From IMG/VR virus record IMGVR_UViG_3300017920_000006, positions 1-20,945 of that record: 20,945 nucleotides of DNA. One strand, given 5' to 3'. Shown here piece by piece: positions 3,105 through 17,113 of this stretch. Below the pieces are notes generated by a model that saw only the letters and a list, made by a program, of their open reading frames with translations, searched no databases and was not told the DNA's origin. Every line of letters starts with the position of its first letter. Positions within the stretch are counted from its first letter, which is position 1. This stretch comes from a virus. A program made the position numbers and the translations under genes.

Positions 3105-5116
3105 GGATTGAATTAAAAAGAATGACATTAGAAAACTTTAAAGGAATTAAAAAACTTGAGATAGATTTTTCAAATAGAACAGACATTAGTGGAGCTAACG
3201 CAACAGGTAAAACAACTATCTTTGACGCTTTTACATGGTTGCTTTTCGATAAAGACTCAACAGACAGAAAATCTTTTGGAATAAAAACATTAGATTCAAA
3301 CAATAACGAAATCCATGGATTAGAACACTCAGTTGAATGTGAGCTTGCCGTAGACGGTGAAATTTTGAGCCTGAGGAAAGTTTATAAGGAGAAATGGACA
3401 AAGAAACGGGGTGAAGAAAATGAAGAGCTTACAGGGCATACTACGGACTATTTCAGAGATGATGTTCCAGTGAAGATGAAGGAATACAACGATACAGTCA
3501 ATCAAATCATAGATGAGAACATATTTAAACTCGTTACCAACCCTTTGTATTTCAACCAAAATATGCACTGGAAAGAAAGAAGAGATCTTCTCTTAGAAAT
3601 ATCTGGTGACGTAAGCACAGAAGATATTCTAAATTCAAAAGCAAAGCTAAAACCTTTAGAGAAGCTTTTAGAAAAAAAGAACATTGAAGATTTGCAGAAA
3701 AGTTTGAACCACAAAAAGAAAATGATAAATGATGAATTAGATAAGATTCCAATTCGTATAGATGAAGCAATGAAAAGTCTTGAAGAATACGACATTGATT
3801 TTGAAGCAGTTGAAAAACAAATTAAAAGCAAAGAAAAAGAAATTGAAGCAATCGAAAAACAGATTAATGATGAAAGTCAAAAAGATAAAGAAATAAGCGA
3901 ACTTAAGTCAAAGAAATACAAACTTGAAGCTGAATTGAATGAGATAAAACACACTAAGGAAATGAAATCAAATGAGCCATTGAGAGAACTTCAAGAACAT
4001 CTTAGAAACAAAGAATATGAAATAAAAGATATAAAGCAAGATATTAAAAACATTCAATCATCTTTGGAAAGAGAAGAGCAGAACAGAAAACTCAACCAAG
4101 AAACAGTCAAATCTTTAAACGATGAAATAAAAGAGTTGGAAGAGGAAAATCAAAAACTTAGAGAAGAATACAGAGAAATTACAGAATCAGAATTTAGTAT
4201 AGATGAAAATGAATTCAAATGCCCGACTTGTGGACAATCATTACCAGAAAATCAGAAAGAAGAAAAGATTCAAGACATGAAGATTAATTTTAATACAGAT
4301 AAAGAAAACAAACTTCAAAAAATTAAACAAAAAGGAATTTCAAACAACAAAAAGATAGAAGCAAAAAGAGAGCAGATACAGAAATTAGAAAATGTAGAAG
4401 AAACAGACACTCAAGAACTACCAAAACTAAATGAAAAATTAGATCAACTCTTAGAAGAAAAAAGAAAACTCGAAAAACATATAGAAGAATTCAAACCTTC
4501 TACAGATGAAACAGCAGAAGAAAAGAAACTCAAAAAACAAATTCAAGAAATAGATGAAAAAATAGAAAACACTCAAGAAGCAGATACATCAAAACTACAA
4601 GAACAGAAAAAAGAATTAATCAGAGAACAAGACGAATTGAAAGAGAAGTTAGGATTCAAAAAACAACAAGAAAAGATCCAAGAAAGAATAAAAGAACTTA
4701 GAGAACAAGAGGAAAAACTAAACAAAGAATATTCAAATTTAGAAAAATACGAGAATCTAACAGATGAATTCATAACCACTAAGGTAAATATTTTAGAGCA
4801 AAAGATAAATTCAAGATTTAAAAATACTCGTTTTAAACTCTTTGAAAGACAGATAAACGGTGGAATAAAAGAAACATGTTCAACACTAATAAACGGTGTG
4901 CCATTCGAAGACGCAAACAACGCTGCAAAGATACAGTCAGGAATAGATATCATAAATGTTTTATCAAAATACTATGAAGTAGAAGCACCAATCTTTATAG
5001 ACAACAGAGAGTCAGTGAACGAAATACCAGAAACAGAAAATCAAGTTATAAACCTTATTGTATCAACAGACAGAAAATTAAAAATAGAAAATAAAGAACT
5101 TGAGGAGGTTAAATAA
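3101..5116 (+). CDS. SMC/Rad50-like ATPase with zinc hook
   Basis: 671 residues. The N-terminal head (1-170) starts IELKRMTLENFKGIKKL, typical of SMC/Rad50/RecF proteins, with Walker A GANATGKTT at 31-39. Two long Glu/Lys-rich coiled-coil arms (about 190-365 and 395-560) flank a zinc-hook CPTC at 374-377. The C-terminal head has a signature-like AAKIQSGIDII and a Walker B-like APIFIDNRESV, in which Asn follows the Asp where Glu is usual. It is much shorter than SbcC or Rad50 (about 1000 residues or more), so the arms are short. It is coupled to recT (TAATG at 5114-5118) and to the small gene before it. Known relatives bind and process DNA ends with a nuclease; here no SbcD-like nuclease is adjacent, and an MBL-fold protein follows recT. 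A role in end processing or phage recombination is inferred. Confidence 0.9.
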   Translation: MRIELKRMTLENFKGIKKLEIDFSNRTDISGANATGKTTIFDAFTWLLFDKDSTDRKSFGIKTLDSNNNEIHGLEHSVECELAVDGEILSLRKVYKEKWTKKRGEENEELTGHTTDYFRDDVPVKMKEYNDTVNQIIDENIFKLVTNPLYFNQNMHWKERRDLLLEISGDVSTEDILNSKAKLKPLEKLLEKKNIEDLQKSLNHKKKMINDELDKIPIRIDEAMKSLEEYDIDFEAVEKQIKSKEKEIEAIEKQINDESQKDKEISELKSKKYKLEAELNEIKHTKEMKSNEPLRELQEHLRNKEYEIKDIKQDIKNIQSSLEREEQNRKLNQETVKSLNDEIKELEEENQKLREEYREITESEFSIDENEFKCPTCGQSLPENQKEEKIQDMKINFNTDKENKLQKIKQKGISNNKKIEAKREQIQKLENVEETDTQELPKLNEKLDQLLEEKRKLEKHIEEFKPSTDETAEEKKLKKQIQEIDEKIENTQEADTSKLQEQKKELIREQDELKEKLGFKKQQEKIQERIKELREQEEKLNKEYSNLEKYENLTDEFITTKVNILEQKINSRFKNTRFKLFERQINGGIKETCSTLINGVPFEDANNAAKIQSGIDIINVLSKYYEVEAPIFIDNRESVNEIPETENQVINLIVSTDRKLKIENKELEEVK

Positions 5117-6042
5117 TGAGTCAAATAGAAGCAAAGAAAAATGCAGAAATGGAAAGTGGAGATCATAAAACTTGGGTTGAAGCTGTTACTTCTAAAATAA
5201 CAGAATTAGAAAAAAAAGAAGGTTTTAGTGTTCCAGCTAACTATTCAGTAGCAAACGCAGTGAAATCAGCGTACTACAAGCTCATGACAGCAAAAACAAA
5301 GGATAAGCAACCTGTTTTAAAGGTTTGCGATAACAAATCGATTGTGAACGCTCTAATGGACATGACAATCCAAGGACTAAGTCCAGCGAAAAATCAATGT
5401 TATTTCATCCCTTACGGAAAAGAATTACAACTACAAAGAAGTTATTTTGGTACTGTTGCAGCAGTTAAGAGAATGAGTAATGTAGAGCATGTTTACGCAA
5501 ACATAGTTTATGAGGGCGACAAGTTCAAGTTTGGAATAAATCCAGAAACAGGAGTACACGAAATATTAGAACATGAGCAATCTCTTGAAAACATTGACAT
5601 AAAGAAAATCAAAGGAGCTTACGCAGTAGTAGTAACCTCTGATGATTCACCAAATTATGTAGAAATTATGAGTATGGCACAGATAAAACAAGCATGGGGT
5701 CAAGGAATGATGAACGGAAATTCAAAAGCTCACCAAAATTTTACAGACCAAATGGCAAAAAAAACGGTTATAAACAGAGCTTGTAAGATGTTTGTAAACA
5801 CATCAGATGATTCAGATTTGCTTGTCGAAGCATTCAACAACACAACAGAGAACGAATATAAAGAGTACGACGAAGATGAAGAAATTAAGGAAGAAATAAA
5901 AGAAGCTCCAAAAAAGAAAATAGGATTCGAACAGAAACCTAAAGTACAAAAAGCACCTAAAGAAGAAATAAAAGAAGAAAAACAACAAACAAAAACACAA
6001 TCCGACAAAAAACAACCGAGTCTTGAAGATGCACCATTTTAA
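5116..6042 (+). CDS. recT: RecT-family single-strand annealing protein
   Basis: 308 residues. The core (about 20-230) has RecT features: ANAVKSAYYKLMTAK, the NQCYFIPYGKELQLQRSYFG segment, then a VVTSDDSPNYVEIMSMAQIK stretch and MAKKTVINRACKMF. RecT anneals complementary single strands and promotes strand invasion at ends resected by a 5'-3' exonuclease. Residues about 245-300 are a highly charged, probably disordered Glu/Lys tail. The protein ends SLEDAPF, which resembles the acidic C-terminal tip of bacterial SSB (DDIPF type). The start overlaps the ATPase stop by one base. No RecE, lambda Exo or YqaJ-type exonuclease gene is next to it; the following MBL-fold gene may fill that role. Confidence 0.93.
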   Translation: MSQIEAKKNAEMESGDHKTWVEAVTSKITELEKKEGFSVPANYSVANAVKSAYYKLMTAKTKDKQPVLKVCDNKSIVNALMDMTIQGLSPAKNQCYFIPYGKELQLQRSYFGTVAAVKRMSNVEHVYANIVYEGDKFKFGINPETGVHEILEHEQSLENIDIKKIKGAYAVVVTSDDSPNYVEIMSMAQIKQAWGQGMMNGNSKAHQNFTDQMAKKTVINRACKMFVNTSDDSDLLVEAFNNTTENEYKEYDEDEEIKEEIKEAPKKKIGFEQKPKVQKAPKEEIKEEKQQTKTQSDKKQPSLEDAPF

Positions 6043-6772
6043 ACTTTCTGTCATAGGATCTACCTCCCGAGGGAATTGCTATCTTCTCAAAGGGGATAGC
6101 GAAACCCTTGTTCTTGAAGCAGGAATGAGGTTTTCAGAAATCCAGGAAAACATGAACTATGAAATAGAAAACATTGTCGGTTGTTTAATTACACATAGCC
6201 ATGGAGATCATTCTAAATACACAAAAGATTATTTGAAATACGGAATAGATTGTTATATGACACCAGAAACAAGCAAGAAACTGAAACTCAAGCACCACAG
6301 AGTACACAATATAAAAACAGAAGAGATATTCAACGTAGGAAACTTTGAGGTGATAGCTTTTCCAACAAAACACGACTGTGATGGATCGGTAGGATTTTTA
6401 GTAAGACATAAAGGATTAGGAACTCTTTTATTTGCAACAGACACGTATTATATTGATTACGATTTCCAAGGACTTAATCATATCCTTATTGAAGCAAACT
6501 ATGACAAACAAATCTTAGCAGACAACATTATTGAAGGAAAGATACCTCAAGTCGTAGCAAAAAGAGTCCGAAAAAGTCATTTTGAAATAGATAATTTGAA
6601 AGAGTTTTTAATGAATTCAGATTTGTCTCAAGTAAAAGAGATTGTTTTGCTTCATCTTAGTGATGGAAACAGCAACGCTAAAGAATTTCAAAAAAGAATA
6701 CAAGAATCGACTTTTATAACCACGTACGTAGCGGATTCGAACATGGAAATCATTTTACCCCCAGTAGAGTGA
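6029..6772 (+). CDS. MBL-fold metallohydrolase, YycJ/WalJ-like (possible DNA exonuclease)
   Basis: About 247 residues. The metal-binding signature LITHSHGDHS (HSHGDH) is present at about residue 56, followed by FPTKHDCDGSVGFLV, the TLLFATDTYYI aspartate motif and a C-terminal LLHLSDGNSNAKEF, the pattern of the YycJ/WalJ branch. Family knowledge: a YycJ protein has been reported as a 5'-to-3' double-strand DNA exonuclease, so this product could supply 3' overhangs to RecT; that is inference. The start is uncertain. ATG 6029 lies within the recT 3' end, and TTG 6023 in the same frame is the alternative; neither has a strong ribosome-binding site, so coupling to recT translation is likely. Confidence 0.85.
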   Translation: MHHFKLSVIGSTSRGNCYLLKGDSETLVLEAGMRFSEIQENMNYEIENIVGCLITHSHGDHSKYTKDYLKYGIDCYMTPETSKKLKLKHHRVHNIKTEEIFNVGNFEVIAFPTKHDCDGSVGFLVRHKGLGTLLFATDTYYIDYDFQGLNHILIEANYDKQILADNIIEGKIPQVVAKRVRKSHFEIDNLKEFLMNSDLSQVKEIVLLHLSDGNSNAKEFQKRIQESTFITTYVADSNMEIILPPVE

Positions 6773-9821: not shown

Positions 9822-10003
9822 TGAAAACGGAAAAAATTGAGAAAGTTTTAGAAGAATTAGACAATATAATTAAAGATTTTAAAAAACAAGAAGGACTTAC
9901 ACTCGATGAATTGATTGATTTAAAGGAAATGAAATGTGATTTGGTTTCGCATGTAGAAACCATAAATACGATGACTCAACATAATCAAATGGAAGGAAGA
10001 TAA
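9821..10003 (+). CDS. Small helical hypothetical protein upstream of ssb
   Basis: 60 residues from ATG 9821, which overlaps the previous stop (TAATG) and follows GAGGAGGG at 9808-9815. Almost entirely predicted helix: KIEKVLEELDNIIKDFKKQE, a turn GLTLDEL, then IDLKEMKCDLVSHVETINTM, likely a helical hairpin that dimerises. No family recognised. The ssb gene starts one base after its stop. Confidence 0.62.
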   Translation: MKTEKIEKVLEELDNIIKDFKKQEGLTLDELIDLKEMKCDLVSHVETINTMTQHNQMEGR

Positions 10004-10004
10004 T

Positions 10005-10460
10005 ATGAGCATAGCATATAACAAAATAATTCTTATTGGTAGATTGACAAGAGATCCAGAAGTGAGATCAACTGTTAGTGGTTCAAGCGTTGCTAACTTT
10101 TCATTGGCGGTTGATAGGCAGTCTAAGAATAACAATGATGTTGATTTTATAAACATTGTAGCTTTTAACAAGACTGCTGATTTTGCAAGCAACTATCTTG
10201 AAAAAGGAAAGCTTATTCTTGTTGAAGGTCAATTAAGAATAAATAAATGGACAGATAGAAATGATGTTAAAAGAGAAACAGCTGAGGTATGGGCTAATAG
10301 AATGGCATTTATGGAAACAAAGAAATCACAGCTAAAACAACCAGCAGAGCAAAACTATCAGGAAGATAATAATGGAATAGGTGGTTTTGATGAAGATCCT
10401 TTTGGAGATATAGAAAATGATTTGACTTCTGATAGCAATAGTATAACAAGGGGTGAATGA
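10005..10460 (+). CDS. ssb: Single-stranded DNA-binding protein
   Basis: 151 residues; GGAAGGAAG precedes ATG 10005. Residues 1-105 are a bacterial SSB OB fold: NKIILIGRLTRDPEVRST, GSSVANFSLAVDR, FINIVAFNKTADFASNYLEK and GKLILVEGQLRINKW. The C-terminal 45 residues are disordered and acidic. The usual terminal DDIPF-type tip is missing. Instead a GGFDEDPFGD sequence lies about 25 residues before the end, and the protein finishes NSITRGE. The protein protects single strands during phage replication and works beside RecT. Its tail may recruit partners less well than host SSB. It is close-packed with thyX. Confidence 0.93.
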   Translation: MSIAYNKIILIGRLTRDPEVRSTVSGSSVANFSLAVDRQSKNNNDVDFINIVAFNKTADFASNYLEKGKLILVEGQLRINKWTDRNDVKRETAEVWANRMAFMETKKSQLKQPAEQNYQEDNNGIGGFDEDPFGDIENDLTSDSNSITRGE

Positions 10461-10461
10461 T

Positions 10462-11058
10462 TTGAAAGTTTTAGATAAAGGATTCGTGAAATTAGTAGAT
10501 GTTTGGGGAAACGAGCTAAAGATAGCAAAGACAGCAGGGATCTCTTTTAAAAATGAAAACCCAGATATCGAAAAAGTTATTTCACAAATAATAAAACACC
10601 CTGGTTTTGGTACACCTTTTGAACATGCAGGTTTAAGCGTAAGAGTCAAAGCTCCAATATTCGTCCTTAGACAATGGATGCGACAGAGGCATTTATCATA
10701 TAACGAACGAAGTGGAAGATATACAAAGTTAGATCAAGAGTTTTATTTACCAAATGAAGATGAAGATATCAAGATAACTTATCAACAAAGCTACAACAAA
10801 GCTTTTGATACTTACAAAACACTTTTAGAAAAAGGAGTTAAGAAAGAAAAAGCAAGAGCAGTTCTACCAGTAGCGACTTATTCAGAAGTTTTTATCTCGG
10901 GGAATTTAAGAGCGTGGCTACATTTTATTAAGCTAAGAAAAGATCCACACGCTCAATGGGAAATAAGACAATACGCAAGTATAGTTTATACGCTTATAAG
11001 AGAGTATTTTCCAGAAACTATTAAAGCTTATGAGGTGATGAAAGATGATATTCGTTGA
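10462..11058 (+). CDS. thyX: Flavin-dependent thymidylate synthase ThyX
   Basis: 198 residues. TTG 10462 is preferred because AAGGGGTG precedes it by about 6 nt and the protein then begins KVLDKGFVKLVDVWGNEL, like known ThyX; GTG 10453 is the alternative and would add three residues. The enzyme makes dTMP from dUMP using FAD, NADPH and methylene-tetrahydrofolate. Seen: TPFEHAGLSVRVKAPIFVLR, the ThyX motif RQRHLSYNERSGRY (consensus RHRx7S core, with Gln for His), and HAQWEIRQYA near the C-terminus. It pairs with dUTPase two genes on, which supplies dUMP. ThyX is typical of hosts lacking ThyA and is found in phages too. Confidence 0.94.
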   Translation: MKVLDKGFVKLVDVWGNELKIAKTAGISFKNENPDIEKVISQIIKHPGFGTPFEHAGLSVRVKAPIFVLRQWMRQRHLSYNERSGRYTKLDQEFYLPNEDEDIKITYQQSYNKAFDTYKTLLEKGVKKEKARAVLPVATYSEVFISGNLRAWLHFIKLRKDPHAQWEIRQYASIVYTLIREYFPETIKAYEVMKDDIR

Positions 11059-11656
11059 TGTTCAAGAAGACAGTGTAAATGCAATGGATAGGGAAGAACT
11101 CTCTATCCTTGCAGCGAACAAAGGAATGATTGTAGAAGAGTTCGGAAAACCTGGGTTATACATGGACGACAATTTTAGAGTTTTAAATTATGGAAGATAT
11201 TCAAAAAGACAACAACAAAGAGAATTAATGAAAAAGAAAAATAGATTATCTAGGCAAAACGAAAGGATAATAAAGGCAATTCAAAAAGAAACCAACATGC
11301 ACAGATATGATGTAGTAAGGTTTTTACTTACTTATAAAAATGCTTTAAGAAAGGAATTCATGAACGATCAGTTCTTTTATAAGCTAACGGATAATGAAGT
11401 CAAAAAGCTAATATTTTTTATAAAAGAAAAGCCTTATTTAAGAGTTTTACTAAGGTATAAAGAACTTAACGAAGCGAAAGAATACGCAGATACTCATATC
11501 ACTCAACACGAAATCGTAGGATATGACGATGTAACTTCTTATAGACAATTCCAGATAAGGAACGCTCATAAAACAGAGAAAATAGGGGGAACAAACTTTT
11601 ATCCAATTTCAGAAAAAGAAAAAATTGAATCTAAAATAAGGGAGTGGTTAAAATAA
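11045..11656 (+). CDS. Hypothetical protein between thyX and dut
   Basis: 203 residues from ATG 11045, overlapping the thyX end by 14 bases with GAGGTGATG upstream. The N-terminal third includes REELSILAANKGMIVEEFGK. Residues about 55-90 are strongly basic (YSKRQQQRELMKKKNRLSRQ), followed by helices (YDVVRFLLTYKNALRKEFMN; VKKLIFFIKEKPYLRVLLRY). The C-terminus overlaps dut by 13 bases. I recognise no family. The basic helix could bind nucleic acid; the genomic position between two nucleotide-metabolism genes is the only functional hint. Confidence 0.75.
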   Translation: MIFVDVQEDSVNAMDREELSILAANKGMIVEEFGKPGLYMDDNFRVLNYGRYSKRQQQRELMKKKNRLSRQNERIIKAIQKETNMHRYDVVRFLLTYKNALRKEFMNDQFFYKLTDNEVKKLIFFIKEKPYLRVLLRYKELNEAKEYADTHITQHEIVGYDDVTSYRQFQIRNAHKTEKIGGTNFYPISEKEKIESKIREWLK

Positions 11657-12063
11657 CAATATATTTTGAAAATAAAGAGCTTAGAACAGAGAAAAAATAC
11701 CAAGACGCAGGAATTGATATACCAAGTAAAGAAGATGTAGTAATTAAACCAGGGCAAACAAAAATGATTAAAACTGGCGTATCAAGCGTGATTGATGAAA
11801 ACCATTTCGGATATATAACAGGTAGATCTTCTCTGAATGCTAAAGGAATAATGACACTTCAAGGAACTATTGACCCTGAGTATCGTGGAGAAATAAGAGT
11901 TGTTTTACATAATCTTACTGATGAAGATTTTGAGATAAACAAAGGAGATAGAATAGCTCAAATGATTCTTATAGAGTTCAATCCAGATTATAACGACCTA
12001 ATCGGTAAAGCACCTCAAGACACTTTAAGGGGGGCGAATGGATTTGGCAGTACAGGAAGATAG
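11644..12063 (+). CDS. dut: dUTPase (trimeric Dut family)
   Basis: 139 residues with all five dUTPase motifs: DAGIDIPS (1), GRSSLNAKG (2), GTIDPEYRGEI (3), GDRIAQMIL (4) and RGANGFGSTG (5). It hydrolyses dUTP to dUMP and pyrophosphate, keeping uracil out of phage DNA and supplying ThyX with dUMP. The start is GTG 11644, overlapping the previous gene; the ribosome-binding site (AAGGGAG) is abnormally close, so initiation is probably coupled. The next in-frame ATG would remove motif 1 and is not credible. The length is typical. Confidence 0.94.
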   Translation: MVKITIYFENKELRTEKKYQDAGIDIPSKEDVVIKPGQTKMIKTGVSSVIDENHFGYITGRSSLNAKGIMTLQGTIDPEYRGEIRVVLHNLTDEDFEINKGDRIAQMILIEFNPDYNDLIGKAPQDTLRGANGFGSTGR

Positions 12064-12433
12064 AATTAGCTCAAAAGAATACAGAAAATTGATATCAAAC
12101 AAAAAAAGAAAGTACAGAAATAAGATAGTAACTCTCGATGGGCATAAATTTGACAGTCAGAAAGAAGCACAATACTATGCAGAGTTAAAGATCTTAAAAT
12201 CTAAAGGAATAGTTAAAAAAATAGAGTTACAGCCAAGATTTCTGCTTCAAGAAGGATTTACCAAAAATGGTGAAAGACACAGAGCAATAAACTATATAGC
12301 AGATTTTAGAATAACTTACGCAGACGGCTCAGTCGAGATAGTAGACGTAAAAGGAACTAAAACAAATGTCTATAAGCTGAAAAAGAAGTTGTTTGAGAAG
12401 AAGTATCCAGATTTGACAATCAAGGAGGTGTGA
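12038..12433 (+). CDS. DUF1064 nuclease (putative phage Holliday-junction/VRR-like endonuclease)
   Basis: 131 residues from ATG 12038 with AGGGGGG just upstream, overlapping dut by 26 bases. It shows the DUF1064 pattern: TLDGHKFDSQKEAQYYAELK, KIELQPRFLLQEGF, then RAINYIADFRITYADG and EIVDVKGTKT with YKLKKKLF after it. The Glu of KEAQYY, Asp of ADF and Lys of VKG form a PD-(D/E)xK-type site. Family members are phage proteins annotated as nucleases or resolvases; a role in resolving branched replication DNA before packaging is inferred. Confidence 0.88.
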   Translation: MDLAVQEDRISSKEYRKLISNKKRKYRNKIVTLDGHKFDSQKEAQYYAELKILKSKGIVKKIELQPRFLLQEGFTKNGERHRAINYIADFRITYADGSVEIVDVKGTKTNVYKLKKKLFEKKYPDLTIKEV

Positions 12434-12434
12434 G

Positions 12435-12587
12435 ATGGCTATGGGTTTAATATTATTCGTTACATTTCTTGTTATATTTTTTAGTTTTGTATTTTTAATG
12501 ATGACTAATGACATCAAGGATATAAAAGATACTTTAACAGGCAAAAAAAATTACTATTATCCAGAAGAAATTAACAAACATTTATAA
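12435..12587 (+). CDS. 50-residue membrane peptide
   Basis: ATG 12435 follows AAGGAGGTG at 12422-12430, one base after the DUF1064 stop; TAA at 12585-12587. Residues 4-23 (GLILFVTFLVIFFSFVFLMM) are a clear transmembrane segment, followed by a polar tail TNDIKDIKDTLTGKKN and YYYPEEI. An alternative ATG two codons on (12441) would change little. No family recognised; small phage membrane proteins of this kind are often of unknown function. The strong ribosome-binding site and tight spacing support a real gene despite its size. Confidence 0.7.
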   Translation: MAMGLILFVTFLVIFFSFVFLMMTNDIKDIKDTLTGKKNYYYPEEINKHL

Positions 12588-12591
12588 AAAA

Positions 12592-12616
12592 TCCTCCCTG
12601 CTAGCCACAGGGAGGA
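12592..12616 (-). terminator. Hairpin with a U-run only in the leftward direction
   Basis: TCCTCCCTG (12592-12600) and CAGGGAGGA (12608-12616) form a perfect 9-bp stem with a 7-nt loop. On the plus strand it is followed by an A-run, not T. On the minus strand it is followed by ATTTTTT. As an intrinsic terminator it therefore works for leftward transcripts, although no leftward gene lies nearby. It may stop antisense transcription from the late region or act as an mRNA-stabilising hairpin at the end of the early operon. Confidence 0.6.
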
Positions 12617-12662
12617 AAAAGAAAAACTTAAGCTAATAAATTATATCACAGGAGGTTAAGCC

Positions 12663-13112
12663 ATGCCAGTTTTATTATACTTTGAAAAAAGAGAAATTGA
12701 ACAAATGCTTCAAAGATATAAACCGAGCCTTCAAAAGATCATGCAAAGGCCACTTAATTTGTATATGGCAAATCATGAGATACAAATAGAAAGCTTTATT
12801 CCTGGTGGGATAGATAAACCAACAACAGGGAAACCAAAAGATTTTGAGTCAATGCTTAAAGAAGGATATAGCAAGGAATTAGTTGACTCTATTGCTATTT
12901 ACTCACTCGTAGAAGAGTGGATGAAGATACTTAAAAGTCATGAAAGAGAAGTTTTGTTTCACCGATATATTAATCATGATTTTGAAATAAAAGGTAAGAG
13001 ATATAAATGTTTATCTTTAAGGGAAACAGCACAAAAAATGAATATCTCTAAATCTTCTGTGGAGAATTACGAAAGAGAAGCAATCAAGAAGATAGAGATA
13101 TACAACGCTTAG
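12663..13112 (+). CDS. ArpU/sigma-like late transcription regulator
   Basis: 149 residues; AGGAGG precedes ATG 12663. The N-terminal half is helical (YFEKREIEQMLQRYKPSLQK). The C-terminal region has a sigma region-4-like helix-turn-helix: LKSHEREVLFHRYIN, then LSLRETAQKMNISKSSVENYEREAIKKIE. This is the ArpU/RinA-type arrangement found just before phage packaging genes, where such proteins switch on late transcription. Its own promoter is not evident; it lies downstream of the 12592-12616 hairpin. The strong promoter at 13338 is the obvious candidate target, by position. Confidence 0.82.
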   Translation: MPVLLYFEKREIEQMLQRYKPSLQKIMQRPLNLYMANHEIQIESFIPGGIDKPTTGKPKDFESMLKEGYSKELVDSIAIYSLVEEWMKILKSHEREVLFHRYINHDFEIKGKRYKCLSLRETAQKMNISKSSVENYEREAIKKIEIYNA

Positions 13113-13123
13113 GAGGAATAATT

Positions 13124-13336
13124 ATGGAAGAACAAAAGTTAAAGCTAGGTGATTTAGTGCGATGCATAAGTTTTCAAGATGATTATAATACAGAAATTGG
13201 TAGAATAGTAGGGAAGCATAAAAGCGGAAGACAATGGGAAGTAAAGTTATTTAATCATGCTTTTACCGAACATTTTTTTACCGAAAAATTAGAAAAGATA
13301 ACTAAAAAACAAGCAATCAAAGAATTAGGTCTATAA
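13124..13336 (+). CDS. Small SH3/KOW-like hypothetical protein
   Basis: 70 residues from ATG 13124 with AGGAGG upstream, 11 bases after the regulator stop. Sequence KLGDLVRCISFQDDYNTEIG, then RIVGKHKSGRQWEVKLFNHA, suggests a small beta barrel. The C-terminus is a basic helix (EKITKKQAIKELGL). I cannot name the family. The late promoter -35 begins two bases after its stop, so it is the last gene before the late operon. A barrel with a basic tail could bind RNA or RNA polymerase, which would make it interesting as a late-control partner; that is speculation. Confidence 0.68.
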   Translation: MEEQKLKLGDLVRCISFQDDYNTEIGRIVGKHKSGRQWEVKLFNHAFTEHFFTEKLEKITKKQAIKELGL

Positions 13337-13337
13337 T

Positions 13338-13367
13338 TTGACTGATTTGGACAAAATATGGTATAAT
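13338..13367 (+). promoter_or_regulatory. Late promoter
   Basis: -35 TTGACT (13338-13343), 18-bp spacer, extended -10 TGG-TATAAT (13359-13367). The predicted start is near 13374. It needs no activator by sequence. It faces the packaging/head operon but reaches a terminator within about 50 nt. Confidence 0.8.
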
Positions 13368-13392
13368 TTGATAAGATGCATACAGTATGTGG

Positions 13393-13421
13393 AGAGCCGA
13401 CTAAAAAATCGGCTCTTTTTT
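13393..13421 (+). terminator. Intrinsic terminator 1, in the late leader
   Basis: AGAGCCGA (13393-13400) and TCGGCTCT (13409-13416) form an 8-bp stem with an 8-nt A-rich loop, followed by a run of six T (13416-13421). It lies about 20 nt from the predicted late transcription start, so the default transcript is a roughly 48-nt RNA. Confidence 0.88.
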
Positions 13422-13430
13422 AATGGTAAC

Positions 13431-13497
13431 AAACCTCGGCCATCACTTGAAAAAGTGGTACCATGATTATTCATGGGGATGGATCCGAGGTTTTTTT
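13431..13497 (+). terminator. Structured three-way-junction terminator 2, in the late leader
   Basis: Outer stem AAACCTCGG (13431-13439) with CCGAGGTTT (13485-13493), extended by CCATC (13440-13444) with GATGG (13478-13482) across a two-base bulge. Inside are two hairpins: ACTT-GAAA-AAGT (13445-13456, GNRA loop) and CCATGA-TTAT-TCATGG (13461-13476). Seven T (13491-13497) follow, so the 3' end acts as a terminator. The fold is far more elaborate than a terminator needs and may be a cis-acting antitermination RNA, a regulated attenuator or an sRNA. Confidence 0.75.
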
Positions 13498-13513
13498 ATT
13501 AGGGGGGATAGAT

Positions 13514-13849
13514 ATGAAACCAATACCAAAACCAATACATGATTATGTTTGGCAAAGAGATGGTGGTCGTTGCCGTTTTTGTGGATTAGAGGGTGAACAC
13601 GTTCATCATATATATTCCAGGTATTCTCAAATTCCTGCACATTTAAAAATACCTATGACAATCAGCAACAATCACCCAGACAATTTGATTCTTTTATGCT
13701 CAAAACATCATTATCGAGTTCATAACGGAAATATTGTTTACGATAAAGTGAAAGAAATCAAAGTTTCAAGACAAAGAGCTAAGTGGGTTAAGACACCAGA
13801 GAAATTACACGACTGCTTAGAGAAAAACAAAAGCAAATTAGCTAAATAG
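13514..13849 (+). CDS. HNH endonuclease (packaging-associated)
   Basis: 111 residues from ATG 13514, chosen for the AGGGGGG site at 13501-13507; upstream in-frame codons lie in the structured terminator. Zinc cysteines CRFCGLEG (about residues 22-29) are followed by the catalytic HVHHIYSRYSQ, NNHPDNLILLCSKHHYRVHN. This C-x2-C...H-H...N...H-x3-H pattern is the HNH fold. HNH proteins beside terminase genes are known to assist cos cleavage and packaging by terminase in several siphophages, and the position here (first gene of the late operon, two genes before terminase) fits. A homing endonuclease is a less likely alternative. Confidence 0.9.
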   Translation: MKPIPKPIHDYVWQRDGGRCRFCGLEGEHVHHIYSRYSQIPAHLKIPMTISNNHPDNLILLCSKHHYRVHNGNIVYDKVKEIKVSRQRAKWVKTPEKLHDCLEKNKSKLAK

Positions 13850-13940
13850 TTAAAGCGTGTGATGTTTTTTAGTCTTTTACGATAAATTATACTGAATAAA
13901 AATACAATGCAAATATGAGCCTCTGAGAGGGAGGTGCGAT

Positions 13941-14144
13941 ATGGATAAAAATAATATAGAGTTTTCTGCTATTATAGCTCCGATTCAAACAGGTATAACT
14001 ATAGGACTTGATGGAGCAAGAATAAAGTTAGATATACCCGAAAGTGAAAGTGCAGCTTATCATAAGTTAAGTGCTTTTGGAAGAGGAAAAATACTCAAGG
14101 TTAAGATAGAAATCGTTGAAGATCAGCAAGATAATGGTTGGTAA
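13941..14144 (+). CDS. Small hypothetical protein before terminase
   Basis: 67 residues from ATG 13941 with GGGAGGTG upstream. A small all-beta style sequence: EFSAIIAPIQTGITIGLDGA, RIKLDIPESESAAYHKL, then RGKILKVKIEIVED. I do not recognise a family. A small hairpin CCTCTGAGAGG (13920-13930) abuts its ribosome-binding site. It lies between the HNH gene and the terminase small subunit, so it may be part of the packaging group. Confidence 0.65.
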   Translation: MDKNNIEFSAIIAPIQTGITIGLDGARIKLDIPESESAAYHKLSAFGRGKILKVKIEIVEDQQDNGW

Positions 14145-14148
14145 GAAA

Positions 14149-14176
14149 CTGTTAAGTTATTCCTTAACGCTGTTAA
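14149..14176 (+). repeat. CTGTTAA direct repeats with a dyad upstream of terS
   Basis: CTGTTAA occurs at 14149-14155 and 14170-14176, 21 bp apart (two helical turns). Between them GTTAAG (14151-14156) and CTTAAC (14163-14168) form a 6-bp inverted repeat. Terminase small subunits often bind repeated sites at or near their own gene, so this is a candidate pac/cos-type recognition site; it could also be an mRNA hairpin. Confidence 0.4.
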
Positions 14177-14216
14177 ATATAACATACCATAACGATAAAA
14201 AATAGGAGGTGATGGC

Positions 14217-14642
14217 ATGCCAAGAGTATCTAAAATAGTACAATACGAGCTTGAGAACAAGGTGTTAAGTTTAGCTTCACAAGGTATGTCATCAAGAGAC
14301 ATTGAAAAGGTTATAAAAAAAGAAGAAAAGAAAAACATTTCTTATGTTGCTATAAATAAATTTTTACAAGAGACAAGAGAAGAGAGGGCAGAAACATCAA
14401 AAAGACAAATACAAGAGCATATTCAAAAAAGTATTCCTAATGATTTACAGAACTTAGATAATATGAATAATAAACTCTTAGAGTGGTTCAATGATGAAGA
14501 ACTTAAAAAGTCTAGAAGGCTTCAAGTATATAATTCCTTACTAAAAGGTATAGAACTAAAATTAAAACATTCTGGGGCAGAAGAAAACACTGTAGATGAT
14601 GTTTTAGATAAGATTAGATCTAAGTGGGGATTAGATAAATGA
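14217..14642 (+). CDS. terS: Terminase small subunit
   Basis: 141 residues from ATG 14217, with AGGAGGTGATG directly upstream. Residues 8-55 form a helix-turn-helix DNA-binding domain (LENKVLSLASQGMSSRDIEK, then NISYVAINKFLQETREER). The centre is a helical oligomerisation region (IQEHIQKSIPNDLQNLDNMN). The C-terminus is basic and charged. The gene ends in ATGA overlap with the large subunit, the usual pairing. Small subunits form a ring that recognises the packaging site and passes DNA to the large subunit. The call rests mainly on the HTH, size and position. Confidence 0.88.
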   Translation: MPRVSKIVQYELENKVLSLASQGMSSRDIEKVIKKEEKKNISYVAINKFLQETREERAETSKRQIQEHIQKSIPNDLQNLDNMNNKLLEWFNDEELKKSRRLQVYNSLLKGIELKLKHSGAEENTVDDVLDKIRSKWGLDK

Positions 14643-15886
14643 CACTTGAAGGCAAGAAACAATATTTAAAAGATATAGGAGCTAATTTGCATAAAGGTGG
14701 ACAAATAGACGCGTTCTTTTCAGAAGCAAGGTTTAAAGTGCTTGATAATGGCAGACGTTGGGGAAAATCTTTATACGCTTCAATAGAAGCTATACCTTAT
14801 GCTTTCATGAAAAATAAAATGGTTTGGATTGTAGCTCCTACTTATGAACTAACAAAAAAGGTTTTTAGAGAAATATATAACTACATTAACCCCAGAGAAT
14901 TTATATGGAAAGACAAAGGTCGTTGTACTATGTCAAAGAGTGAACTGTTTATTGAAACTAATACAGGCACTCAATTTGTAGGTAAATCAGCAGATAACCC
15001 TAAATCACTTGTTGGTGAAGGGGTTGATCTTTTAATAATTGATGAGGCTGCAATGATTCCAGAAAAAATATGGACTGAATATTTAAGACCAACTCTTACA
15101 GATAAAAAAGGTAGAGCTATTATAATCTCTACCCCTAAAGGTAAGAATTGGTTTTTTCATTTATATACAAGAGGTCAAGATCAGCTGTTTGAAAATTATG
15201 TAAGTTGGAAACATCCAACTTGGCATAACCCTTTTATTGATCCTGAAGAAATTGAAGAGGCAAGAAAAACATTACCAGAAAGGATATTTCAGCAAGAATA
15301 CGAAGCTGCATTTTTAGATGATACTGGTGGAGTTTTCAGAGGAGTTAGAAAGAATATAAGAAAAACGTTGAGGGAACCTAAACCAGGCGAACATTTTTTT
15401 ATTGGAGTCGATTTGGCTAAGTATATGGATTTCACGGTAATAACTGTTCTTGATGAGTTTGGTAATCTTGTTTACTTTGATAGATTCAATCAAGTTGATT
15501 GGAGTTTGCAAAAACAAAGAATTAAAAGTGTATATAAGCAATATCCTGGAAAAATAACTATAGATTCTACAGGCGTTGGAGATCCAATTTATGAAGACTT
15601 GAGAAATGAAAGCATTAATATAGATTCTTTTAAGTTTAATAACAGCAGTAAAACAGACTTAATAAACAATCTTTCATTATCTATAGAGCAGAATAAGATA
15701 CATTATGAAGATATACCTGTTTTAATTAATGAACTAGAAATATATGCATATGAATTAACCCCGTCAAGAAATTTAAAAATGAACGCTCCAGCAGGATATC
15801 ATGATGACTGTGTTATTTCTCTTGCTTTAGCGGAATGGGGTAGAACGAATGTAGCTATGTATTCAGAAGAGGAAATTGAATGGTGA
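14639..15886 (+). CDS. terL: Terminase large subunit
   Basis: 415 residues. ATPase domain: Walker A-like NGRRWGKS (37-44), adenine-region VWIVAPTYELTKK, Walker B LLIIDEAAM (131-139, catalytic E136) and coupling motif IISTPKGKN. Nuclease domain (about 255-405): GVDLAKYMDF (D258), ITIDSTGVGDP and the final YHDDCVISLALA, the three acidic positions of the RNase H-like fold. This is the packaging motor that cuts concatemers and pumps DNA into the prohead through the portal. Length and motifs are complete. The start overlaps terS (ATGA). Confidence 0.97.
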   Translation: MTLEGKKQYLKDIGANLHKGGQIDAFFSEARFKVLDNGRRWGKSLYASIEAIPYAFMKNKMVWIVAPTYELTKKVFREIYNYINPREFIWKDKGRCTMSKSELFIETNTGTQFVGKSADNPKSLVGEGVDLLIIDEAAMIPEKIWTEYLRPTLTDKKGRAIIISTPKGKNWFFHLYTRGQDQLFENYVSWKHPTWHNPFIDPEEIEEARKTLPERIFQQEYEAAFLDDTGGVFRGVRKNIRKTLREPKPGEHFFIGVDLAKYMDFTVITVLDEFGNLVYFDRFNQVDWSLQKQRIKSVYKQYPGKITIDSTGVGDPIYEDLRNESINIDSFKFNNSSKTDLINNLSLSIEQNKIHYEDIPVLINELEIYAYELTPSRNLKMNAPAGYHDDCVISLALAEWGRTNVAMYSEEEIEW

Positions 15887-15895
15887 GGTGATTAA

Positions 15896-17113
15896 ATGAG
15901 ATATCATGATGAGATAGATAATAAGCTACTATTAGAGCTTTATAAAGATGATTTTGAATATGCTGAAGGGAGTAATATTTCTCTTGTTTATAATTATATT
16001 CCTAAGTTTATTCTCTTATCGATAGCTCTTACAATGCAAAAAAAATTAAATCTAATCGGTGAAAAAGAAAATGATAATCAAATTGAAAATATTTGGAAAA
16101 TATGGGATAACAACAATATGCAAATGCTTAAGTATAAAATAGCTTTGCATTATTTTTTATTTAAAGAAGTAAATCTTGAAGCTGTTTGGGAAGATGAAGA
16201 TAAAATACTGGGAACGAAAATTATCCTTCATGATCCAGAAAGTGTGAAAGTTGAAAAACTTGGCGATCAAATAATAAAGGTAACTATCAACTCAAAAGAA
16301 CTAAACGAAGAGGGAAAAACTGTTAATGTAAAAAAGGTTATGACAAAAGACAATATCTCAATACAAAGAGGGGAAGAAAATCCAGAAGTAAAAGACAATT
16401 TATATGATTCGATTCCTTTTATTCATATTGAAAATTCAAACTATAGAATAAAAAGCCTTATAAGACTACAAGATACAGAAAATAGATATGAGGGATATTT
16501 AGATGCTCTTTTTGATTTACACTCTGACCCTATACTATTTGATGACTTGGGCGAAGCTTTTAGGGCAAAAGAGTTGAAAAAAGAGACTTCTATAAAAATT
16601 AGTAAAGATAAGACAAAAATTAGGAAGTTTCTCCATTATCCAAAAGACTCAAAAGGTGCAAGTATGCTTGAGAGTAATGGAGCAATGGCACAAAGAATAC
16701 AAGATCAGCAAGACAAAATATGGGATAAAGTCAAAAGGTTATATCCAGAAATAGTTTTAATGGAAATGCTTCAAAGTTCTGGGAATGTAACTGGTGTTGG
16801 TTTAGACAAGAAATTGATAGAAATAACTACAAGTATCAACTATGCTCGAGGTGAAATAAAAAACGCTTTAGAAGAATTAAACGAGCTTATCGGTTGGTTG
16901 GTAAATAACAACAGAACTAAAACACAAATAGAATTTGAAGATGTAATTCCAAAATCTTTTGATGATTTAATACAAGAAGTTTCAAAAGCTACTGGATTGT
17001 TATCAAAAGAATGGCAGTTAAACAGATTAGAAGATAAAGGAATAATAAATTCAGCAGACGACGAACTCAAAAAGCAAAAAAAAGAAGTTCAAGCAAACCC
17101 TATGGGTTGGTGA
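15896..17113 (+). CDS. Portal protein (SPP1 gp6-like)
   Basis: 405 residues from ATG 15896, with GAGGTGAT nine bases after terL. It has the SPP1-type portal layout: N-terminal NYIPKFILLSIALTMQKKLN, a beta-rich wing (LGTKIILHDPESVKVEKLGD ... IKVTINSKEL), a middle clip region (DSIPFIHIENSNYRIKSLIR, LQDTENRYEGYLDALFDLHS), then a helical stem and crown (IEITTSINYARGEIKNALEE) and a C-terminal Lys-rich tail. Portals form a 12-fold ring at one capsid vertex, the channel for DNA. The position after terL and before the minor head protein supports it. The family is inferred from sequence pattern and synteny. Confidence 0.9.
   Translation: MRYHDEIDNKLLLELYKDDFEYAEGSNISLVYNYIPKFILLSIALTMQKKLNLIGEKENDNQIENIWKIWDNNNMQMLKYKIALHYFLFKEVNLEAVWEDEDKILGTKIILHDPESVKVEKLGDQIIKVTINSKELNEEGKTVNVKKVMTKDNISIQRGEENPEVKDNLYDSIPFIHIENSNYRIKSLIRLQDTENRYEGYLDALFDLHSDPILFDDLGEAFRAKELKKETSIKISKDKTKIRKFLHYPKDSKGASMLESNGAMAQRIQDQQDKIWDKVKRLYPEIVLMEMLQSSGNVTGVGLDKKLIEITTSINYARGEIKNALEELNELIGWLVNNNRTKTQIEFEDVIPKSFDDLIQEVSKATGLLSKEWQLNRLEDKGIINSADDELKKQKKEVQANPMGW

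Follow-up and report, generated by a model that had tools for sequence, protein, structure and literature searches.

A putative Q/AlpA-like antitermination gate at the late promoter of a temperate-type phage

In the virus record IMGVR_UViG_3300017920_000006 (positions 1 to 20,945; hereafter the window, i.e., the whole stretch of 20,945 nucleotides that was analysed), we found a near-consensus promoter that runs at once into two serial terminators, T1 and T2, ahead of the packaging genes. Sequence comparison, a structure model, and analogy with known systems together make it probable that a temperate-type phage here controls its late promoter through a Q/AlpA-like antitermination gate, with the protein encoded at 12663 as the effector. 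The record has an early region with a Cro/CI-type repressor-like gene, an antirepressor, and RecT; past it, the order is the 12663 regulator, a small ORF at 13124, the promoter, T1, T2, an HNH gene, terS, and terL. No PF00589 integrase was found in the window record or in G003, both of which are fragments. The features are as follows:

12663..13112, plus strand: sigma-70-region-4-like late regulator gene (149 aa; phrog_35069), the proposed Q-like antiterminator
13124..13336, plus strand: small ORF (70 aa) between the regulator and the promoter, not conserved
13338..13343, plus strand: -35 element TTGACT (TTGAC or TTGAT in most relatives)
13349..13361, plus strand: spacer element GGACAAAATATGG, predicted at -25 to -13, conserved, a candidate regulator-binding element
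13362..13367, plus strand: -10 element TATAAT, 18 nt from the -35 element and preceded by TGG
13372..13377, plus strand: TAAGAT, the second -10-like hexamer, spanning about -2 to +4 and overlapping the predicted start, a candidate sigma-dependent pause element
13374, plus strand: predicted transcription start, placed 7 nt past the -10 hexamer
13392..13421, plus strand: terminator T1, 8-bp stem (9 with a G-U pair) and T6, with equivalents in relatives
13431..13497, plus strand: terminator T2, outer 9+5-bp stem around two hairpins, and T7
13514..13849, plus strand: HNH endonuclease (Pfam HNH_2, 1.1e-4), the first gene past the gate, with GGGGGG before its start
14217-14642, plus strand: terminase small subunit (TerS), assigned by position and relatives, the start of the late operon
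14639-15886, plus strand: terminase large subunit (TerL; Terminase_6N, 3.3e-13)

According to the mechanism that we propose, the host RNA polymerase would start unaided at the near-consensus promoter and would pause just after initiation at TAAGAT, held there by sigma region 2. Without the regulator, transcription would terminate at T1 (~45 nt) or at T2 (~120 nt), and the HNH, terminase, and structural genes would remain off. The early operon would supply the sigma-region-4-like 12663 protein, which would bind the conserved element between -35 and -10 and load onto the paused polymerase, and the loaded polymerase might then pass T1, T2, and later terminators. Instead of causing a pause, the second hexamer could also be the -10 element of an alternative start located 10 nt downstream.

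The TTGACT-18-TATAAT promoter reported in the first-pass annotation appears to be real. It has 11 of 12 consensus matches and a TG before the -10 element, and it ranks first among the 32 promoter-like sites in the 7 kb from 10000 to 17000, a class whose number is not above chance. The 20-base promoter core (13351-13370) has a single occurrence in the window, with 0.01 expected at three or fewer mismatches. Two metagenome contigs carry near-identical copies of the region in which the promoter, T1, and T2 are kept, with 1-nt changes only in T or G runs. The T1 transcript could carry a short leaderless ORF from an ATG at 13376; we considered this reading and dropped it, as the ATG is absent from relatives such as G031 and L046.

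Both terminators were also much as first described, each consisting of a GC-rich hairpin and then a T-run, the criterion for an intrinsic terminator. The core stem of T1 (13393-13400/13409-13416) encloses the loop CTAAAAAA and is followed by T6 at 13416-13421; its 51-nt fold has a predicted energy of -15.9 kcal/mol (z -3.7 vs. shuffles), and the RNA would end at ~45-48 nt if +1 is the predicted start at 13374. T2 is built from a 9-bp outer stem (13431-13439/13485-13493) and a 5-bp inner stem (13440-13444/13478-13482) around a GAAA hairpin and a 6-bp UUAU hairpin (13461-13466/13471-13476), with T7 at 13491-13497. Its fold of -28.1 kcal/mol (z -4.6) was equalled by no shuffle and ranks among the most stable terminator-like folds on both strands of 270 kb of these loci. 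A simple terminator scan of the plus strand listed neither T1 nor T2.

The unusually stable three-way junction of T2 raises the question of whether this RNA is itself the effector, either antiterminating in cis as put RNA does or sensing a ligand or protein in the leader of the HNH gene. In the Marinitoga phage MCV2, an element with the same topology (a 12-bp stem around two hairpins, -33.8 kcal/mol) lies directly before an accessory gene, which would suit such a role. The two elements are, however, unrelated in sequence. T2 is transcribed after T1 and therefore comes too late to rescue it, it terminates in T7, and most relatives share neither its sequence nor its fold but have plain hairpins there or none. 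The T2 DNA was not found in 103 Thermotogota genomes, no Rfam family matched the window at the gathering threshold, and a permissive Rfam search of 13300-13540 returned weak matches only, the best being bglG-cis-reg (21.9 bits vs. a gathering score of 80). We therefore regard a cis-acting or sensing role of the T2 RNA as very unlikely; the first-pass annotation had listed the folded RNA among the candidate effectors. Second terminators are also present in MCV2, L015, L043, L068, and L069, as an 18-bp hairpin in L015 and as plain hairpins in L043, L068, and L069. Since relatives carry plain second hairpins in the same layout, the branched shape seems to be one solution for a strong second terminator rather than a conserved RNA.

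Homologs of the 12663 protein were gathered from Marinitoga phages, Thermotogota genomes, and viral contigs, and the DNA just downstream of their genes was then read. Fifteen distinct loci, phage or prophage and mostly from Thermotogota, have the promoter module downstream of these homologs. It is present in the window (also in both near-identical copies), in the Marinitoga phages MCV1, MCV2, and MPV1 and the Marinitoga prophage G043, in the Thermotogota prophages G031, G083, and G082/L046, and in the IMG loci L015, L042, L043, L044, L045, L050, and L054. In most relatives the promoter directly follows the regulator gene; in G083 the module lies ~830 nt past it, with other ORFs between. We then applied a strict test, in which -35 and -10 elements with at least 10 of 12 matches and a spacing of 16-19 had to be followed within range by a hairpin with at least four G-C pairs and a T-run. 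It was passed by 13 of 19 regions after regulator genes, by 0 of 1,080 dinucleotide shuffles, and at 3 places in 254 kb of control DNA from the same loci; the module loci are kin, so that these comparisons and trials are not independent. The pass in L011 (weak promoter, no second hexamer) was left out of the module count. MPV1, L050, and L015 failed the strict rule (weak T-run, as in T1 of MPV1, long hairpin, or poor -35), yet they align with the others. No adjacent module was found beside the regulator homologs in L011, L027, and L052, or at the broken copy in L049.

Two loci were found via the terminase small subunit and not via the regulator. Both have related terS genes, with the promoter and then two terminators directly before terS (L069 3370-3990, L068 810-930), and in L069 this series of promoter, two terminators, and terS comes after a gene for a different sigma-R4-like protein. 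A scan of the viral contigs with the promoter-core pattern returned known relatives only, plus one chance match inside a gene (L016). Among the individual loci, L042 has two tandem late-promoter/terminator modules (4459-4650) after a single regulator gene, the first without a good -35, and in Marinitoga lauensis (L013/L014 5778-6252) a frameshifted regulator copy is followed by a degenerate promoter-like sequence and no terminator.

When 16 late promoters were aligned on the -10 element, the shared layout was TTGAC(A/T), a spacer ending with the consensus ~ACAAAATATGG, TATAAT, 3-5 nt, TA(T/A/G/C)(G/A)AT, an initial transcribed region with the consensus ~ggataAGTATAC, and a hairpin. The second -10-like hexamer lies 9-11 nt past the first in all 16, compared with 10 of 95 control promoter-like sites of the same loci. 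This hexamer, TAAGAT in the window, and the conservation of the layout in relatives are additions to the first-pass annotation. In the Marinitoga phages, the spacer and -10 sequence of the late promoter has a further copy (ACAATATATAGTATA) 31 bp upstream (L010 4443-4457, also L006 and L026); might it be a second regulator site?

The stem of T1 ends at +38 to +44 in 11 of 12 accepted modules and at +60 in L054, while the stem sequences are unrelated among relatives (AGAGCCGA, GGAGCC, CCGGGC, GGGGC, and others). Thus, the position of T1 appears to be under selection and its sequence does not, as would be expected of a terminator rather than of an RNA that acts by base pairing. A regulatory small RNA of 45-48 nt ending at T1 had been put forward in the first-pass annotation, and a strong promoter with an immediate terminator would indeed make such an RNA abundant; with stems that differ completely from phage to phage at a kept position, however, we find this reading hardly credible. 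The same anatomy bears on the idea that T1 and T2 end early-operon transcription and that the promoter leaks through them by inefficient termination, with no regulated antitermination. Terminators are common at the boundary between early and late genes, and many intrinsic terminators are leaky. However, all relatives have the start ahead of T1, with T1 mostly at the near-constant distance given above, a simpler placement would be before the promoter, and the conserved second -10-like hexamer would be left unexplained, so we consider such a boundary function improbable.

The 12663 family is the only gene common to all its module-bearing loci next to the module, and for this reason we propose it as the antiterminator. 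The window protein matches Pfam Sigma70_r4 (2.3e-6) and phrog_35069 (2e-33), a family listed as of unknown function, with weak similarity to phrog_36. In its predicted structure (pLDDT 81), the match to sigma-R4 domains comes from residues 69-149 (Z 7.8, rmsd 1.5 over 73 residues), a Z below 8 being modest on its own; the structure search with this model returned sigma-R4 domains, and 21Q and AlpA were not among the matches listed. The N-terminal part modelled alone has low confidence (pLDDT 65), and the regulator profile, when searched against PDB sequences, gave weak HTH matches only. On this combination of genomic position, predicted fold, and analogy, the 12663 protein as effector of the gate is the best explanation. 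The earlier suggestion of an "ArpU-like" effector stands in part: the family occurs beside the module and has a predicted sigma-R4-like C-terminal domain, but it is not canonical ArpU, because TIGR01637, absent from the matches of the window protein, gave no match in the window record, G031, G083, G082, or G045, and because none of the 11 regions beside canonical ArpU genes carries the module.

The 70-aa product of the 13124 ORF, also considered as an effector in the first-pass annotation, is disfavoured: it was found elsewhere only in the two near-identical copies of the same phage, in most relatives no such ORF separates the regulator gene from the promoter, and the protein has no family match. 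Within this ORF there is a 15-nt imperfect tandem repeat (CATGCTTTTACCGAA) at 13256-13285. A strong terminator-like hairpin on the minus strand (12592-12616), opposing the operon, lies between the 12435 ORF and the regulator gene; it is possible that it marks the end of an antisense transcript.

The main rival to the antitermination reading is that the 12663 protein is an ordinary late activator, similar to Ltr, ArpU, or RinA, that recruits the polymerase, with T1 and T2 serving to stop stray transcription. Its sigma-R4-like DNA-binding domain would be in keeping with such a role, late regulators at the same place in Gram-positive phages have been described as activators (PMC13123087), and L015, which lacks a good -35, would fit as well. 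By contrast, the near-consensus -35 of nearly all relatives should need no activator. In all relatives the terminators lie beyond the start, and a productive transcript has to get past them. The binding sites of Ltr activators are repeats upstream of the -10 element (PMC13123087), and such an array was absent from the four loci examined. The lack of the module in the 11 canonical ArpU regions also speaks against simple activation, which we therefore consider unlikely, albeit worth keeping in mind.

Antitermination by a Q-like protein, the reading that we prefer, has well-described counterparts. Q and AlpA systems require a binding element between -35 and -10 plus a -10-like element in the initial transcribed region, which holds the polymerase via sigma region 2, and the target terminator lies just downstream. 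The first-pass annotation had inferred that late expression is gated by antitermination; the comparative anatomy (spacer element, second -10-like hexamer, and early terminator) matches these cis requirements, and antitermination itself is what we infer from it. Its statement that no named element fits exactly was too strong, as the layout of a Q/AlpA late promoter fits well. Similar to the pR'-tR' regions of phages 21, lambda, and 82, the window places a regulator gene immediately before a late promoter whose core elements are good; a conserved element lies between -35 and -10, a -10-like hexamer in the initial transcribed region, and a terminator just downstream. The window regulator is predicted to be sigma-R4-like, as reported for 21Q, which folds like sigma-R4. 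On the other hand, we found no sequence relationship between the regulator and the Q families, and the second hexamer overlaps the start in the window (offset 10), whereas that of lambda is at +1 to +6. The present phages are those of thermophilic Thermotogota, with two serial terminators of which T2 is branched, and their antitermination is a prediction. In 21Q and AlpA, the ring that plugs the polymerase RNA exit channel is in the N-terminal part.

In Pseudomonas aeruginosa, AlpA acts at PalpB and PPA0807 through a binding element at -25 to -20 (GGGACG) and, in alpB, a -10-like CACGAT at -1 to +5; the PA0807 promoter has two serial terminators, one beginning 26 bp downstream. The window has GGACA at -25 to -21, which may be a coincidence, its -10-like hexamer at -2 to +4, and terminators before its first gene, of which the AlpA promoters have one or two. 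However, no homology was detected, and AlpA governs a chromosomal lysis regulon whereas the window promoter precedes a phage packaging operon. The antiterminator GafZ of the Caulobacter gene transfer agent combines a sigma-factor-like HTH with a binding site between the -35 and -10 elements of the cluster promoter, as would the window regulator, but it needs GafY and IHF for activation of a weak -35, and its terminator lies after the first gene. With the ArpU/Ltr/RinA group (TIGR01637, phrog_36), the window regulator shares its position before terS, its small sigma-R4-like architecture, and the weak phrog_36 similarity noted above; it differs in the failure of TIGR01637 on proteins of the window type, in having the promoter-terminator module, and in that the group is described as activators binding upstream repeats (PMC13123087). 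HK022 put RNA is likewise a structured leader RNA of a phage, whereas T2 follows T1, ends in a T-run, and is not conserved.

Overall, a system that works like Q, AlpA, and GafZ is the best explanation, and the resemblance is one of analogy. We are somewhat inclined to regard phrog_35069 as a new family of Q-like processive antiterminators, characterized by a sigma-R4-type domain, loading at a start-site pause, and serial (in some cases branched) terminators acting as a stringent double gate, that would control late genes in Thermotogota phages. The workings of Q-type antitermination are known from proteobacterial phages and their relatives (lambda, 21, 82, AlpA, GafZ), and in the part of the literature covered we found no paper on such a system in Thermotogota phages. 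If the proposal is true, the same promoter logic operates in phages of a deep-branching thermophilic phylum via a regulator family without prior function; it would also provide a simple sequence signature for finding more such systems and heat-stable proteins for structural work. It raises the question of whether other phages' sigma-R4-like late regulators, for which the usual annotation is sigma factor or activator, are antiterminators.

Immediately past the gate of the window, the longest HNH frame begins at 13463, i.e., within T2. Because indels in T and G runs between 13463 and 13514 disrupt this longer frame in L002/L003, the start is taken to be 13514. A search of the HNH protein against phages gave no match, and TerS is 47% identical to its counterpart in L015.

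In G043 and L068/L069, the gate leads toward terS with no protein gene between. Accessory genes lie between T1 and terS in MCV1, MCV2, and MPV1, and late transcripts must therefore pass several terminators there. In the Marinitoga phages, these genes occupy L006 5300-6290, L007 4240-5520, and L010 4550-5945, those of MPV1 being an annotated toxin-antitoxin pair, and they are followed by a second GGAGCC..GGCTCC-like terminator copy; G043 (L026) is the bare form. This looks as though accessory genes insert at the gate. Between T1 and terS, the late leader also holds a tRNA-Pro gene, annotated in MPV1 (L010 6064-6135), with tRNA-Pro-like sequences at L006 ~6388-6460, L007 ~5652-5725, and L026 ~2130-2203. 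A structured element (ACTCCTTGGGGTTCCGTCCACCAAGGGAAAGTGC) with a T-run end is found in opposite orientations at L036 1713-1764 (reverse complement), L042 6003-6052, and L044 2209-2258, and in G083 it precedes an NYN-like gene on the other strand. Just upstream of terS in the Marinitoga phages (L006 6485-6576, L007 5750-5840, L010 6160-6232) are repeated CCGGCA units and a 72-nt hairpin (-36.8 kcal/mol in MCV1/2), a possible packaging site or extra terminator.
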